A DNA stretch of 40,905 nt from NCBI GenBank assembly GCA_025924315.1, contig JAICIO010000046.1, positions 1 to 40,905 on the forward strand. Reading direction: 5' to 3'. Position numbers and translations under genes: made by a program. Positions within the stretch are counted from its first letter, which is position 1, and the number at the start of each line of letters is the position of its first letter. The stretch comes from Phycisphaerae bacterium (GTDB taxonomy: Bacteria; Planctomycetota; Phycisphaerae; Tepidisphaerales; Tepidisphaeraceae). Under the pieces are notes generated by a model that saw only the letters and a list, made by a program, of their open reading frames with translations, ran no database searches and was not told where the DNA came from. This document shows, piece by piece, positions 19,327 to 40,905 of this stretch.

Positions 19327-19331
19327 GGTAC

Positions 19332-19389
19332 GTAGCACGGGCTACCAGCCCGTGCATCCACGAGGGCACGGGCTGGTAGCCCGTGCTAC
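19332..19389. repeat. REP-like double hairpin (BIME), GTAG-CACGGGCT type
   Basis: Two inverted copies of GTAGCACGGGCT-ACC-AGCCCGTGC, the left at 19332-19355 and the right at 19366-19389, with a 10-nt spacer. Each copy begins with the GTAG foot (or ends with CTAC) and folds as its own hairpin. It fills the gap between the convergent QueC-like and argS genes and could also end transcription. Confidence 0.85.
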
Positions 19390-19396
19390 GAAGAGA

Positions 19397-35092: not shown

Positions 35093-37717
35093 ATGGCGAC
35101 GAACGAACGTGATAGAAACAAATCGATTGAACGACGCGTGAGTGAACTGCTCTCGCGCATGACGCTCGAAGAAAAGATCAACCAGATGAGCATCCGCATG
35201 GGCAGCGGCGAAGAACCCGAAACCGCCGCGCGTCTCAACAACGAGTTGCAAAAGGAAACGATCGAGAAATCGCGCCATCGCATCCCGATGCTCTTCACCC
35301 GCGAGTCCTCTCACGGCCTCAATACGCTGCACGTCACGAGCTTCCCCGCCTGCATCGTCATGGCCAGCACATGGGATGAAGACCTCAACTATCGTGTCGG
35401 TCGAGTCATCGCGCAGGAAGCTCGCGCCCAAGGCGTTCATCAAGGCCTCTCGCCGGTCCTCGACATCGCTCGCGATCCGCGCTGGGGCCGGATGGAAGAA
35501 GGCCTCGGCGAAGATGCGCTCCTCTGTTCGCGCATCGGCGTCGCGTTCATCAAAGGTTTGCAGGGCGACAACCTCAAAGACGGCATCATCGCCACGCCGA
35601 AGCATCTCGTCGGTTACGGCGCGAGCGAAGGTGGAAAGGACAACGATCCGATCTCCATCACCGAGCGGGATCTGCTCGAAACCTACCTTCCTCCATTCGA
35701 GGCCGCCATCAAGGATGGCAAGGCCGAGTCGGTCATGATCTGTTTCGGCGCGCTCAACGGTATTCCCTGCACGCTTGATAAGCACATCGTGACCGACATC
35801 CTTCGCGAATGGGGCTTCGACGGCCACGTCGTCGACGATTGCCCCGGCATCGCGGGCCTCGTCGGCCATCGCGCCGCCCATGACATGGACGAAGCGATCG
35901 CCCTTGCGATCAACGCGGGCATCGATCGGCAGTTCTACGATTACATCGGCCTCGTCCCCAGCCAGGCCGCGGGGCAGGAGATGTTCGAGAAGGCGCTCGT
36001 TAAGCTCGTGAAGGAAGGAAAGGTCTCCGAAGAGCGCATCACCGACGCCGCCCGTCGCACGCTGCGATCTAAGTTCAAGCTCGGCCTGTTCGAAAACGCG
36101 ATCGTCGATCCCGCGAATGCAAAAGAAGTCGCGAGCAACCCCGAGCACGCGAAACTCGCGAGAGAAGTCGCCGCGAAGGGGATTACACTTCTCAAGAACG
36201 ATAACAACGTTCTCCCGCTGAAGTCCGACATTAAAACAATTGCGGTGATCGGCCCCAACGCCGCGGACGGACAGATCGGCGATTACAGCGGTACGCCGAA
36301 GCACATCGTGTCGCCGCTCGAAGGTTTGCAAAGGGCGGTCGGCGCTTCAACGAAGATTGTCTACGAAAAAGGCTGCGAGATTCTTCCGCTCGCGAGCGTC
36401 GCGGGGCGCTTCAGCGTTCGCGCGCACGGGAATCTGAAGGTCGATCTGGATGACGAGTATCAGTTCTCACTCGAATCGAACGACGGCGCTAAGCTGATCA
36501 TTGACGGCAAGACCCTCATCAATGATTGGGAAACCGGCGCTCGCCGCAAGCGCGAAACGAAGCTCAAGCTCGCCAAAGGCGATCACCAAATCGCCGTTGA
36601 ATACTTCAAAGGCACGCGCGGATTGGTCACCGAAGGTGACGCCGCCGAGCTGAACCGCAACGTTCTTCGTCTCTCGTGGAGCAGCTCCAAGTCGCCATCG
36701 CGCATCATCCCAACCGATGCCTTCACCTACCGCGGCGAGCTCGGCAAGCAGCAGCACGGCTCCGGCGAAGGGCTGATGATGGATGTTTTCCTCGGCATGA
36801 ACTTCCAGCAGCCGATCACCGAGCAAAGCCGCGTGGTGCGCGATGTGAACTTCGACTGGGGCGATCACTCGCCGATCCTCGCAGAGGCGGCGGCGTCACA
36901 CGAAGCGGAGTCGATCGCGAAGGCTGCGCAAGCCGCGAAGAATGCCGACGTCGCGATCGTCTGCGTCGGCGAAACCAGTCACCGCGGCGCACAACAAGTC
37001 TGCGGCGAACACTTCGACCGCGCTGATCTCGGCCTCACGGGCGCGCAGGCTCAACTCGTCGAAGCGGTCCTTGCCACCGGCACGCCGACGGTTCTCGTCC
37101 TCGTCAATGGCCGCTCCCTCGCCATCCCCAAACTCATCGCGAAATCCCAAGCGGTCCTCGAATCCTGGTACCCCGGACAAGAGGGCGGCCATGCTCTCGC
37201 GGATATTCTCCTCGGCAAGACGAACCCCAGTGGCAAGCTGCCGGTTTCCATTCCGCACACGTCCGGCCAGTTGCCCGTCTACTACAATCGCCGTCCGCGC
37301 ATGGGCTGGTACATCGACGAAAAATCCGAGCCGCTCTTCCCATTCGGCTTCGGCCTCAGCTACACGACGTTCGAGTACGGCAACCTCCGTATCTCGCCTG
37401 AGCGCGGAAATGAGAAGCAGGAATTCAGCGTCACGTGTGACGTGAAAAACACAGGCAAACGCCCTGGCGATGAGATCGCGCAGCTCTATGTCGACGACGC
37501 GATCTGCACCTTCGCCACACCTGTGAAGCGGCTCACCGATTTCAAACGCATTTCGCTGAACCCCGGCGAAACCAAATCCGTCTCATTCAAGATCGGCTCC
37601 AAGCAACTCGCGCTGCTCGATCAAAGCCTGAAACCCCGAGTCGAGCCCGGCGAATTCAAGGTCCAGGTCGGCGGAAGCTCGACCAGCGGTATCACGAAAA
37701 GCCTTTTGATTGGATGA
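35093..37717 (+). CDS. glycoside hydrolase family 3 beta-glycosidase with internal PA14-like domain
   Basis: An 874-residue enzyme. GAGGAAGG precedes ATG 35093 by 8 nt. The first TIM-barrel domain shows LLSRMTLEEKINQM, LSPVLDIARDPRWGR, ATPKHLVGYGASEGG (the KH pair), and VVDDCPG at 246-252, where D249 aligns with the catalytic nucleophile; Asp248 replaces the usual Ser. The second alpha/beta domain is interrupted at about 437-542 by a PA14-like insert (EYQFSLESNDGAKLIIDG, LAKGDHQIAVEYF), and resumes with DVAIVCVGETS and ESWYPGQEGG. A fibronectin III-like domain ends the protein (GDEIAQLYVDD; RLTDFKRISLNPGE). No signal peptide is visible, so it may be cytoplasmic. Beta-glucosidase or xylosidase type. 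Confidence 0.93.
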   Translation: MATNERDRNKSIERRVSELLSRMTLEEKINQMSIRMGSGEEPETAARLNNELQKETIEKSRHRIPMLFTRESSHGLNTLHVTSFPACIVMASTWDEDLNYRVGRVIAQEARAQGVHQGLSPVLDIARDPRWGRMEEGLGEDALLCSRIGVAFIKGLQGDNLKDGIIATPKHLVGYGASEGGKDNDPISITERDLLETYLPPFEAAIKDGKAESVMICFGALNGIPCTLDKHIVTDILREWGFDGHVVDDCPGIAGLVGHRAAHDMDEAIALAINAGIDRQFYDYIGLVPSQAAGQEMFEKALVKLVKEGKVSEERITDAARRTLRSKFKLGLFENAIVDPANAKEVASNPEHAKLAREVAAKGITLLKNDNNVLPLKSDIKTIAVIGPNAADGQIGDYSGTPKHIVSPLEGLQRAVGASTKIVYEKGCEILPLASVAGRFSVRAHGNLKVDLDDEYQFSLESNDGAKLIIDGKTLINDWETGARRKRETKLKLAKGDHQIAVEYFKGTRGLVTEGDAAELNRNVLRLSWSSSKSPSRIIPTDAFTYRGELGKQQHGSGEGLMMDVFLGMNFQQPITEQSRVVRDVNFDWGDHSPILAEAAASHEAESIAKAAQAAKNADVAIVCVGETSHRGAQQVCGEHFDRADLGLTGAQAQLVEAVLATGTPTVLVLVNGRSLAIPKLIAKSQAVLESWYPGQEGGHALADILLGKTNPSGKLPVSIPHTSGQLPVYYNRRPRMGWYIDEKSEPLFPFGFGLSYTTFEYGNLRISPERGNEKQEFSVTCDVKNTGKRPGDEIAQLYVDDAICTFATPVKRLTDFKRISLNPGETKSVSFKIGSKQLALLDQSLKPRVEPGEFKVQVGGSSTSGITKSLLIG

Positions 37718-37718
37718 C

Positions 37719-37777
37719 GTAGGGTGTGGTTCACCACACCAGTTTTCGACCGCGGTGTGCTGAAGCACACCCTACAA
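37719..37777. repeat. REP-like double hairpin (BIME), GTAGGGTGTG type
   Basis: Left copy GTAG-GGTGTGG-TTCA-CCACACC (37719-37740) and right copy GGTGTGC-TGAA-GCACACC-CTACAA (37754-37777), in opposite orientation, with a 13-nt spacer. The outer bases GTAGGGTGTG and CACACCCTAC also pair. It occupies the whole gap between the GH3 and U32 genes; the U32 start is therefore placed after it. Confidence 0.85.
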
Positions 37778-37785
37778 TTTTAACT

Positions 37786-40386
37786 ATGACCGCGGCCGTA
37801 TCGACACAAACGCTCACGCGCGCCCCCGAACTTCTCGCCCCCGCGGGCGATTGGGACGCGATGCGCGCGGCGGTGTCGAACGGCGCCAACGCCGTTTACT
37901 TCGGTCTGGGCAACTTCAACGCCCGTCATCGCGCCACCAACTTCACGGTTGAAGAGCTCCCGAAGATCATGCAGTATCTGCACGGTCACAACGTTCGCGG
38001 ATTTCTCACTTTCAACACGCTGATCTTCTCCGACGAGCTTCCCGCCGCGGTCGAGTACATCAAAGCCATCGCCGCCGCGAACGTCGATGCGGTCATCGTG
38101 CAGGATCTCGGCCTGGCGAAATTGATCCACGCGATGGCGCCCTCGTTGCGCATTCACGGCTCGACACAGATGACGCTTACTGAGCCACGCGGGATCGAAT
38201 TCGTCCGTCAGCTCGGCGTTGAGCGCGTGGTTCTCGCGCGCGAACTGTCGATTCCGGACATCCAGCGCATCACGAGCGCGACGACGATGCCGCTGGAAGT
38301 TTTCGTCCACGGCGCGCTCTGCGTCGCCTACTCCGGCCAATGCCTGACCAGCGAAGCCCTCGGCGGACGCAGCGCCAACCGCGGGCAATGCGCGCAAGCC
38401 TGCCGCCTGCCGTACGAGCTCGTCGTCGATGGAGAAACGCGCGACCTCGGCGAGAAGTCTTACCTCCTCTCGCCGCAAGACCTCGCCGCGTATGATCTCA
38501 TCCACGACCTCACGAAGATGGGCGTCGCCAGCTTCAAAATCGAAGGCCGTCTAAAGAGCGCCCATTACGTCGCCGCCACCACGCAAACGTATCGCGCCGC
38601 GATTCAATCCGCGCTCGCGCATGAGCGCTTCCGCATCGCGCAACAACAACGCGCCGATCTCGAACAAACTTTTTCGCGTGGATTCGCCCATGGTTTTCTT
38701 TCCGGGGTCAATCACCAGGAACTCGTCAACGCGCGATTTCCTAAATCCCGCGGCTCGCGCATCGGGACGATCGCGCAAATCACCGATCGCAGCGTCATCG
38801 TTACGCTGGAGAATCATGTGGCACAGCCGCCCTCGGCTGTGCTCCGCGCGCATGCACAGTCCCGGCGCGCAGGGACTGTGCCACACAGTCCACTCAAACC
38901 CGGCGATGGCATCGTCTTCGACGAAGGCCACCCCGAACAAGACGAGCAGGGCGGTCGCGTGTTCACTGTCCGGACTCGCGGCAAACACCAGATCGAACTC
39001 GAATTCGGTCGCGGAGATGTGAACCTCGCAGCGCTCTCGATCGGCGCGATCGTCTGGAAAACCGACGACCCCGCCATCCGCAAACGCCTCGAGCATTCCT
39101 TCTCGCGAGACACCGTCATCGATCGCATTCCGCTCGCGGCGCGTGTGCACGCGCACGTCGGCCAACGAATCACGCTAACGCTGACCGATGATCGATCGAG
39201 TGCGTCGGCAACGTGGGACAAGCCGCTCGAAAGGGCGAACAAGTTTCCGGTGAACGAAGCGATGTTGCGCGAGCAGCTCGGTCGATTGGGCGATACGCCT
39301 TATGAACTCGATGAGCTGACAACCGACATCGCCGGCGAGCCGATGGTGCCGAAGTCGGTGCTGAACGATCTGCGGAGAAAAGCCGTCGAGCAGTTGCTCG
39401 CGAATCGCGCGACGTCGCATCCGATTAATGATGCGGAAGCACTTGAGCGGCTTCGGAAAGACGCATGTGGCACAGCCGCCCTCGGCTGTGCGGACGCGGA
39501 AGCACAGCCGAGGGCGGCTGTGCCACACGTAACGCAACTGACTGTGCTCGTGCGCACGCTCGATCAACTCGATGCGGTGCTCGCGTGGCAGAACGAGCTG
39601 CGCCCATCGATGGTCTACTGCGATTTCGAAGACATTCGGCGATCCAAAGAAGCCGTTGAGCGGTGTCGCGCGGCCAACATGCCCATCGCCCTCGCGACGC
39701 TGCGCATCGTCAAACCGACGGAAGAGGGCCTGCTTCGCCAAATTCTCGACTGCAACCCCGATGCGATTCTCGTCCGCAACCTCGCGGCCATCAGCTTCTA
39801 TCGCGAGTCCGCACCACAGATGCCGCTCATTGGTGATTATGCGCTCAACATGGCGAACGAACTGACTGCGAAGATCTTCGCCGACGCTGGACTTGTCCGC
39901 TTCGTGCCGAGCTATGACCTGAACTGGAAACAGCTCGCCGCGATGCTCTCGCGGTTCGATCCCTCGAAGTTCGAAGCCGTCGTTCATCAGCACATGCCCA
40001 TGTTCCACATGGAGCATTGCGTCTTCGCCCACACACTGAGCGATGGCAAGGACTACCGCGACTGCGGGCGGCCGTGCGAATCGCATCAGGTCGATCTGCG
40101 TGACCGCGTCGGTGAGCCGCATCCGCTCATCCCCGACGTCGGCTGCCGCAACACCGTCTTCAACGCCCAGGCCCAATCCGCCGCGGAGTTCATTCCGCAG
40201 ATGCTGGACCTCGGCTTGCGACATTTCCGCGTCGAGCTCTTGCGCGAAAAAGGCGAAGAGGTCGCGCCGCTGCTTGATCGTTACGCCGACGTCATCACCG
40301 GAAGGGCCGAGCCAAAATCAACTGTGCGATCGCTCCGCGTGCTCAATCAACTCGGTGTGACGCGCGGAACGCTGGATCATGAGTGA
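37786..40386 (+). CDS. peptidase U32-family protein, RlhA-type, carrying two in-frame palindromic inserts
   Basis: An 866-residue protein. ATG 37786 is chosen because the in-frame 37726 start lies in the palindromic repeat. The N-terminal barrel opens PELLAPAGDWDAMRAAV and has YFGLGNFNAR. The U32 signature is complete at about 171-212 (EVFVHGALCVAYSG, CLTSE, then RGQCAQACRLPY), with Cys that hold an iron-sulfur cluster in related enzymes. The later part has DYALNMANELTAKIF, HQHMPMFHMEHCVF, DCGRPCESH and VGCRNTVFNAQ, as in the rRNA hydroxylase RlhA and relatives. RlhA hydroxylates a 23S rRNA cytidine; tRNA-modifying TrhP is a shorter cousin. Residues about 345-368 and 560-582 are encoded by REP-like elements; without them the flanks join as VTLEN-SPLKPGDG and LRKD-TQLTVLV. 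Confidence 0.88.
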   Translation: MTAAVSTQTLTRAPELLAPAGDWDAMRAAVSNGANAVYFGLGNFNARHRATNFTVEELPKIMQYLHGHNVRGFLTFNTLIFSDELPAAVEYIKAIAAANVDAVIVQDLGLAKLIHAMAPSLRIHGSTQMTLTEPRGIEFVRQLGVERVVLARELSIPDIQRITSATTMPLEVFVHGALCVAYSGQCLTSEALGGRSANRGQCAQACRLPYELVVDGETRDLGEKSYLLSPQDLAAYDLIHDLTKMGVASFKIEGRLKSAHYVAATTQTYRAAIQSALAHERFRIAQQQRADLEQTFSRGFAHGFLSGVNHQELVNARFPKSRGSRIGTIAQITDRSVIVTLENHVAQPPSAVLRAHAQSRRAGTVPHSPLKPGDGIVFDEGHPEQDEQGGRVFTVRTRGKHQIELEFGRGDVNLAALSIGAIVWKTDDPAIRKRLEHSFSRDTVIDRIPLAARVHAHVGQRITLTLTDDRSSASATWDKPLERANKFPVNEAMLREQLGRLGDTPYELDELTTDIAGEPMVPKSVLNDLRRKAVEQLLANRATSHPINDAEALERLRKDACGTAALGCADAEAQPRAAVPHVTQLTVLVRTLDQLDAVLAWQNELRPSMVYCDFEDIRRSKEAVERCRAANMPIALATLRIVKPTEEGLLRQILDCNPDAILVRNLAAISFYRESAPQMPLIGDYALNMANELTAKIFADAGLVRFVPSYDLNWKQLAAMLSRFDPSKFEAVVHQHMPMFHMEHCVFAHTLSDGKDYRDCGRPCESHQVDLRDRVGEPHPLIPDVGCRNTVFNAQAQSAAEFIPQMLDLGLRHFRVELLREKGEEVAPLLDRYADVITGRAEPKSTVRSLRVLNQLGVTRGTLDHE
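38818..38884. repeat. REP-like double hairpin inside the U32 gene (copy A)
   Basis: GTG-GCACAGCCG-CCCT-CGGCTGTGC, an 11-nt spacer, then GCACAGTCC-CGGCGCGCA-GGGACTGTGC-CAC. Flanked by CAT before and ACAG after. It is read through in frame as a Pro/Ala/Arg-rich peptide that includes AQPPSAV. The stems of the two halves differ in sequence. Confidence 0.88.
39467..39526. repeat. REP-like double hairpin inside the U32 gene (copy B)
   Basis: GTG-GCACAGCCG-CCCT-CGGCTGTGC, spacer GGACGCGGAA, then GCACAGCCG-AGGG-CGGCTGTGC-CAC. Its first half is identical to that of copy A. It is translated in a different frame relative to the element (CGTAALGC, then AQPRAAVP), again without a stop. Confidence 0.88.
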
Positions 40387-40446
40387 TCCCTGCGGTAAAA
40401 CGTTCCCTTCGTTTCAATCACCAATAACCAATCACCAGGAGTCGTC

Positions 40447-40905
40447 GTGAGCAAGAAAGCATTGATCGTCTGGGGCGGATGGGATGGCCACCAACCGAAA
40501 GCCGTCGCGGGGATTTTTGAGAAGCTGCTGAAGGAAGAAGGCTTCGAGATCACGGTGAGCGATTCGCTCGATTCGTTCAACGATCGCGCGAAGCTCGAAG
40601 CGCTGAGCCTCATCGTCCCATGCTGGACCGCCGGGCAGCTCACCGGCGACCAGCAGGCGAACGTCTGCGGCGCCGTCGCGAGCGGTGTCGGCATCGCGGG
40701 TTGTCATGGTGGAATGTGCGACGCATTTCGCAATTCCTGCGAATACCAGTTCATGACCGGCGGGCAGTGGGTCGCGCATCCGGGGAACGATCAAACGAAA
40801 TACACGGTCAAGATGGGTCCGACCAAGAGCCCGATCACGGAAGGCATTAAGGACTTCCCGGTGTCGAGCGAGCAGTATTACATGCACGTCGACCCCGCGA
40901 TCAAA
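40447..40905 (+). CDS. ThuA-like protein, 3' end beyond the window
   Basis: The frame is open from GTG 40447 to the window edge (153 codons). AGGAG lies 6 nt before the GTG. The sequence KKALIVWGGWDGHQP, split after the first strand, and AGCHGGMCDAFR with FMTGGQWVAHPG are the typical blocks of the ThuA family, which has a class I glutamine amidotransferase-like fold but no confirmed catalytic triad. Family members are linked to trehalose or other sugar use and to keto-sugar metabolism; the GH3 gene two genes upstream fits carbohydrate use, but there is no direct evidence of a shared unit. Confidence 0.88.
   Translation, partial: MSKKALIVWGGWDGHQPKAVAGIFEKLLKEEGFEITVSDSLDSFNDRAKLEALSLIVPCWTAGQLTGDQQANVCGAVASGVGIAGCHGGMCDAFRNSCEYQFMTGGQWVAHPGNDQTKYTVKMGPTKSPITEGIKDFPVSSEQYYMHVDPAIK

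Follow-up and report, generated by a model that had tools for sequence, protein, structure and literature searches.

Two GTGG-tagged REP dimers lie in frame within one U32 protein gene of a Phycisphaerae-like planctomycete

The gene described here sits at the end of contig C46 of genome G000, a Phycisphaerae-like metagenome assembly of 6.57 Mb in 262 contigs. The stretch analysed, referred to below as the window, comprises 40,905 nt. The gene encodes a protein of the U32 family and contains two palindromic elements, and a palindrome of a different kind precedes it. The features are:

37719..37776, + strand: a different, GTAG-tagged inverted dimer (GTAGGGTGTGGTTCACCACACC...AAGCACACCCTAC), directly 5′ of the U32 start codon
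37786..40386, + strand: host gene, U32 family protein of 866 aa, with ATG at 37786 and stop codon at 40384-40386
38816..38886, + strand, core 38818-38884: insert 1, REP heterodimer, GTGGCACAGCCGCCCTCGGCTGTGC...GCACAGTCCC...GGGACTGTGCCAC, terminal AT/AC
39465..39528, + strand, core 39467-39526: insert 2, perfect inverted REP dimer, situated after DUF3656 in the linker that leads to the second U32 domain

The Pfam domain PF01136 was found twice in the U32 protein, with DUF3656 (PF12392) in between. The nearest NCBIfam models are TrhP, UbiU and UbiV, all of which scored under their equivalog cut-offs, and a PDB search with the protein gave no match. Judged from its sequence, the protein can reasonably be called RlhA/TrhP/UbiU-like; the label “RlhA-type” used in the sequence-only reading is sensible but unproven. 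For comparison we used 92 other U32 proteins, giving a set of 93 genes including the window's own. Conservation reaches 97% or more in 139 columns of the other 92 orthologues; the host protein retains 138 of them, and on either side of each insert the codon score is normal, with no change of frame. These two observations indicate that the host gene is intact and not a pseudogene. No second full-length U32 orthologue of the host-gene type was found in the genome. The dimer at 37719-37776 is probably part of the 5′ untranslated region. An upstream GTG start of the U32 ORF (37726) falls within this dimer, so automatic annotation may begin the protein too early.

Both elements were found where the sequence-only reading had placed them, and both are read within the single open frame of 866 aa. 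The cores measure 67 bp for element 1, equivalent to about 22-25 residues, and 60 bp for element 2, equivalent to 20, which corrects the earlier sizes of about 24 and 23 residues. Insert 1 encodes VAQPPSAVLRAHAQSRRAGTVPH in the VAQPPSAV frame and insert 2 encodes CGTAALGCADAEAQPRAAVPH in the CGTAALG frame. Their first halves are identical, as had been described, and the stretch that the two have in common is 33 nt long (94%). The window contains the 12-mer GTGGCACAGCCG exactly three times, every time inside one of the two elements. Element 1 consists of one GCCG hairpin and one GTCCC hairpin (z = -3.2 as RNA), and element 2 of an inverted pair that matches perfectly over 26 bp (z = -11.9 as RNA). 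Over window positions 37000-40905 no Rfam match reached the gathering threshold. Elsewhere in the window, a GTAG-type inverted dimer with perfect 25-bp arms (CGTAGCACGGGCTACCAGCCCGTGC) occupies the gap between two genes at 19331-19390. Further imperfect intergenic hairpins, one of them AT-rich, lie at 7286-7365 and 4861-4932 and do not belong to the REP family. Single 9-mer matches, such as that at 5277, were discounted as chance.

A search for the 24-mer arm with at most two mismatches yielded 79 + 84 = 163 copies in the genome and none with the reversed control, which excludes chance. In 60 stretches of the same genome, 770 kb with the window, we could read 52 paired arms. The termini of the dimers are almost always RT-GTGG-CACAGCC...GGCTGTG-CCAC-AY, while the sequence of the spacer varies; the elements range from 60 to 73 bp. 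The GCCG and GTCCC hairpin subtypes both recur and mix within dimers. Nearly all copies bear the tag GTGG. No target-site duplication was seen, the mean longest flank duplication being 0.56 as compared to 0.65 in shuffled pairs. By their anatomy the elements are GTGG-tagged REP inverted dimers (REPIN-like) with the tags facing outward, GTGG matching a known variant of GTAG. Where the terminus reads ATGTGG it supplies an ATG in the WHSRPRLC frame (L136:232-291, L168:5940-5997), so a copy just 5′ of a gene can give it an N-terminal MWHSRPRLC leader, whether spurious or real. A relative of the element, 100 bp in length (GTGGCACAGACATTC.TGTCTGTG...), is present at L163:4009-4108 and L158:9109-9208, and one copy lies upstream of the locus of the candidate transposase described below.

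The element family was also detected in three relatives of the same family (G001, G022 and G019) and in five class-level relatives. Among 392 genomes of the phylum, 4 have the exact 25-mer arm, and distant families are represented among them. This patchy distribution fits either horizontal spread or repeated loss. The genomes of other families with the exact 25-bp arm (G204, G256 and G444) have 1 to 12 copies, in keeping with a horizontal movement of the elements.

Ten Y1_Tnp ORFs were found in the genome, and the element family is present at only one of these ten loci. This ORF (locus L126 on contig C20) encodes 162 aa. Elements of both subtypes lie shortly before its ATG, one of them with the tag GTAG, and another element follows right after its stop codon. 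Reading of the sequence revealed the motifs PDHSH and YICENP, which we take to be those expected in the RAYT family. The ORF also passes the NCBIfam model REP_Tyr_transpos (NF047646), though narrowly (80.6 bits versus a cut-off of 80). We infer that this RAYT is the likely mover of the GTGG element family.

The orthologues were used to ask what the elements added to the protein. The segment around insert 1 has 61 residues here compared to a median of 36 in the orthologues (35-51, and one with 94; n = 92). Insert 1 thus looks like a clean addition of about 25 residues at a site that is empty in orthologues at the protein level, and the earlier suggestion that removing the insert joins sensible sequence holds here. 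It does not hold for insert 2. The corresponding segment is again 61 residues long, as compared to a median of 52.5 (44-93; n = 92), and taking about 23 residues out leaves a linker of 38, shorter than in any of the 92 orthologues. Insert 2 therefore appears to lie in a hypervariable linker rather than to be a pure addition. As the net gain over the median is only about 9 residues, the insertion may have come along with loss of linker sequence. The nearest orthologue (L010, 71-74%) has no palindrome at the insert sites, like most orthologues. In an AlphaFold2 model based on a 24-sequence alignment (mean pLDDT 81.8), residues 346-366 in insert 1 and 563-578 in insert 2 have pLDDT below 50 in mostly confident surroundings, and both inserts are accordingly predicted to form disordered, flexible loops.

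Other copies within genes were identified by an open frame and the codon score. Since the sampled stretches had been picked around copies, the result, about 10 intragenic clusters out of 79, is a fraction per element and not per base. Coding sequence makes up about 85% of the sampled DNA. It is thus strongly avoided, and the few intragenic copies are what has survived a strong filter; the view that the inserts represent a mechanism of protein growth was overstated. In G001, which has 94 arm copies, none of 48 clusters was intragenic. The in-frame inserts in other proteins of the genome include:

RarA: inside AAA_assoc_2
PurL: at the junction of its two halves
PabB: between the N-terminal and the chorismate-binding domains
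CarB: within the ATP-grasp domain, flanked by the positions of ...DAICD and GEMVLIGG... in E. coli
GNAT acetyltransferase: in-frame insert
GSDH-domain protein: in-frame insert
HEAT-repeat protein: in-frame insert

Several of the intragenic copies are found at domain boundaries or turns, and several of the hosts are core enzymes, a trait shared with Rickettsia. A gene for an HrpA-type helicase contains a degenerate half copy (HVAQPLAVS, L149:3270-3294) ahead of the OB-fold domain, which may be the remnant of an old insertion or a chance match.

The two inserts in the U32 gene are read in different frames of the element, from which it had been proposed that any frame is tolerated. In support of this, all six frames are free of stops in 43 of 50 dimers as compared to 5.8% of shuffled versions, a result that counts as one observation and not fifty because the dimers share their arm. 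The frames are not used equally, however: among nine well-supported intragenic copies, seven are read as VAQPPSAV, two as CGTAALG and none as WHSRPRLC. For the VAQPPSAV frame in seven or more of nine the probability is p = 0.008 against one third, a bias that rests on nine copies. Copies in the reading rich in Pro, Ala and Val are retained more frequently than those whose readings contain Cys, Trp and Arg.

We scanned the 93 U32 genes for palindromes with a perfect stem of at least 12, taking the expectation from codon shuffles. The linker that holds element 2 has palindromes in 8 of the 93 genes, the window's own included, versus 0.4 expected; these genes are from Planctomycetota and Verrucomicrobiota. 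With a stem of 11 a ninth gene, from the cyanobacterial locus L071, joins them. A second linker, residues 271-295, has four palindromes where none was expected, and residues 15-270 and 641-866 have none at a stem of at least 12 in any of the 93 genes. Internal strong palindromes are present in 13 of 93 U32 genes and 4 of 248 neighboring ORFs (Fisher p = 2e-5), corresponding to 7.2 and 1.5 per 100 kb, a 4.6-fold difference.

The linker palindromes of the U32 orthologues are unrelated to each other in sequence and differ in their tags. Most of those tested recur in multiple copies within the genome they come from (L077 lies outside the tested set): many further copies were found for L030, L041, L047, L049 and L071, 114 arm matches for L063, 23 for L106, and for L048 one further copy among the matches listed. 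As in the window, the U32 genes of L063 and L071 each contain the repeat of their own genome at two internal places, and that of L106 has a second copy, at the N-terminus, that may lie outside the translated part. It is conceivable, though we hold it only tentatively, that the U32/DUF3656 linkers are a cross-phylum hot spot which unrelated mobile palindromes entered independently, staying in frame, in Planctomycetota, Verrucomicrobiota and Cyanobacteriota and at a higher rate than in neighboring genes, either as a preferred target or as linkers that benefit from flexible sequence. For the excess itself we favor permissive linkers over target preference.

Taken together, we consider it very probable that the inserts are selfish REP dimers mobilized by a RAYT, whose drift is filtered by what the protein tolerates. 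The RAYT on contig C20 would copy hairpin pairs to new places via single-stranded DNA, without target duplication, and most insertions into genes would be lost. Those that survive would have kept the frame, avoided stops and hit a site able to carry a flexible loop of 20-25 residues. The stop-free, GC-rich palindrome would let an insert survive in any frame, and the surviving inserts, presumably translated with their host, would be passengers of neutral or near-neutral effect. Two or more permissive linkers between the domains of the U32 protein could then account both for the two copies here and for unrelated palindromes at the same linkers elsewhere.

An alternative is that the U32 gene or its linkers are not merely tolerant but a preferred target, being single-stranded, exposed during replication, or in possession of a RAYT target motif. 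The 4.6-fold higher density of strong palindromes per kb than in neighboring ORFs agrees with this, as do the two internal copies of the own repeat here and in at least two other lineages (L063, L071). Against it, the families involved are unrelated and differ in tag, the palindromes lie mainly in variable linkers, as tolerance alone predicts, and no common target motif was identified; we regard a preferred target as unlikely. A function of the inserts is less likely again. Their mRNA hairpins or encoded loops could regulate translation pausing, domain folding or enzyme activity, and the stability of the RNA hairpins, their location between folding domains and their recurrence in relatives would all suit such a role. 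However, most orthologues, the nearest one included, manage without a palindrome there, the sequences and families differ, and the peptides are predicted to be disordered.

Two insertions within one gene might also mark a decaying U32 gene. The frame of 866 codons is open, though, with a normal codon score around the inserts and all but one of the near-invariant residues, and no other full-length copy of the host-gene type was found in the genome, so that we find decay very improbable. We give equally little credit to an artefact of assembly or binning, in which a repeat-driven misassembly has joined unrelated sequence. The genome is a metagenome assembly and some contigs (e.g., C70, C73 and C82) do end near element copies, but the flanks of the inserts continue one protein in one frame with full orthologue coverage, and other copies are likewise in frame in core genes. 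Selfish dimers tolerated by their host thus remain the explanation that we prefer.

With these findings the known range of protein-coding palindromes comes to include a Phycisphaerae-like planctomycete, in which there is also a plausible source of transposase. They also provide a natural insertion-tolerance experiment, in which U32 linkers of three phyla accept foreign peptides and which shows which of the three readings of an element proteins bear. The intragenic, in-frame REP phenomenon is itself already known: REPs encoding 20-30 residues, two inserts in one gene and an explanation by flexible linkers have been described, with most cases in Opitutus terrae (PMC3733652). As far as the literature searched shows, what is new is the sequence of the element, for which we found no match there, the preference in frame, and unrelated palindromes in one linker across three phyla.

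The system described here resembles the GTAG REP/BIME/REPIN elements in its short tagged hairpins, high copy number, inverted dimers, mostly extragenic location and a RAYT bracketed by repeats. In most GTAG-20 elements of O. terrae the tag is mutated to GTGG (PMC3733652; Di Nocera and co-workers); our elements have GTGG with an outer RT, and the likeness rests on tag and description, not on stem sequence. Bacterial MITEs (ERIC/RU-1, YPAL/RU-2, Correia/NEMIS; PMC2229807) are likewise mobile repeats of small size that form in-frame fusions with genes. They look like degenerate IS elements that carry terminal inverted repeats, whereas each unit here has two tagged hairpins, and the lack of target duplication rules out membership.

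The sequence-only reading had likened the inserts to the palindromes of Rickettsia. The phenomenon is of the same kind: RPE-1 to RPE-7 of Rickettsia and WPE of Wolbachia (PMC3767692, PMC2229807) are in-frame palindromes at exposed positions of conserved genes, possibly with sites shared by different families. Possible insertion hot spots and solvent exposure have been discussed for RPEs (PMC3767692), and an RPE in guanylate kinase is functionally tolerated (summarized in PMC2229807). The behavior is common to both but membership is not. RPEs are 100-150 bp (PMC3767692) or 105-146 bp (PMC2229807) in length, RPE-4 and RPE-6 have the tag CGTC, and repeats with this tag are without a dedicated transposase (PMC3733652); the GTGG/GTAG-type REP dimers described here are ruled out as RPEs by their length of 60-73 bp and their GTGG tag, and they also bracket a RAYT. 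With the linker shared between phyla, what was an anecdote from the coding palindromes of Rickettsia and the REPs of O. terrae becomes countable, and target preference can be tested against tolerance.
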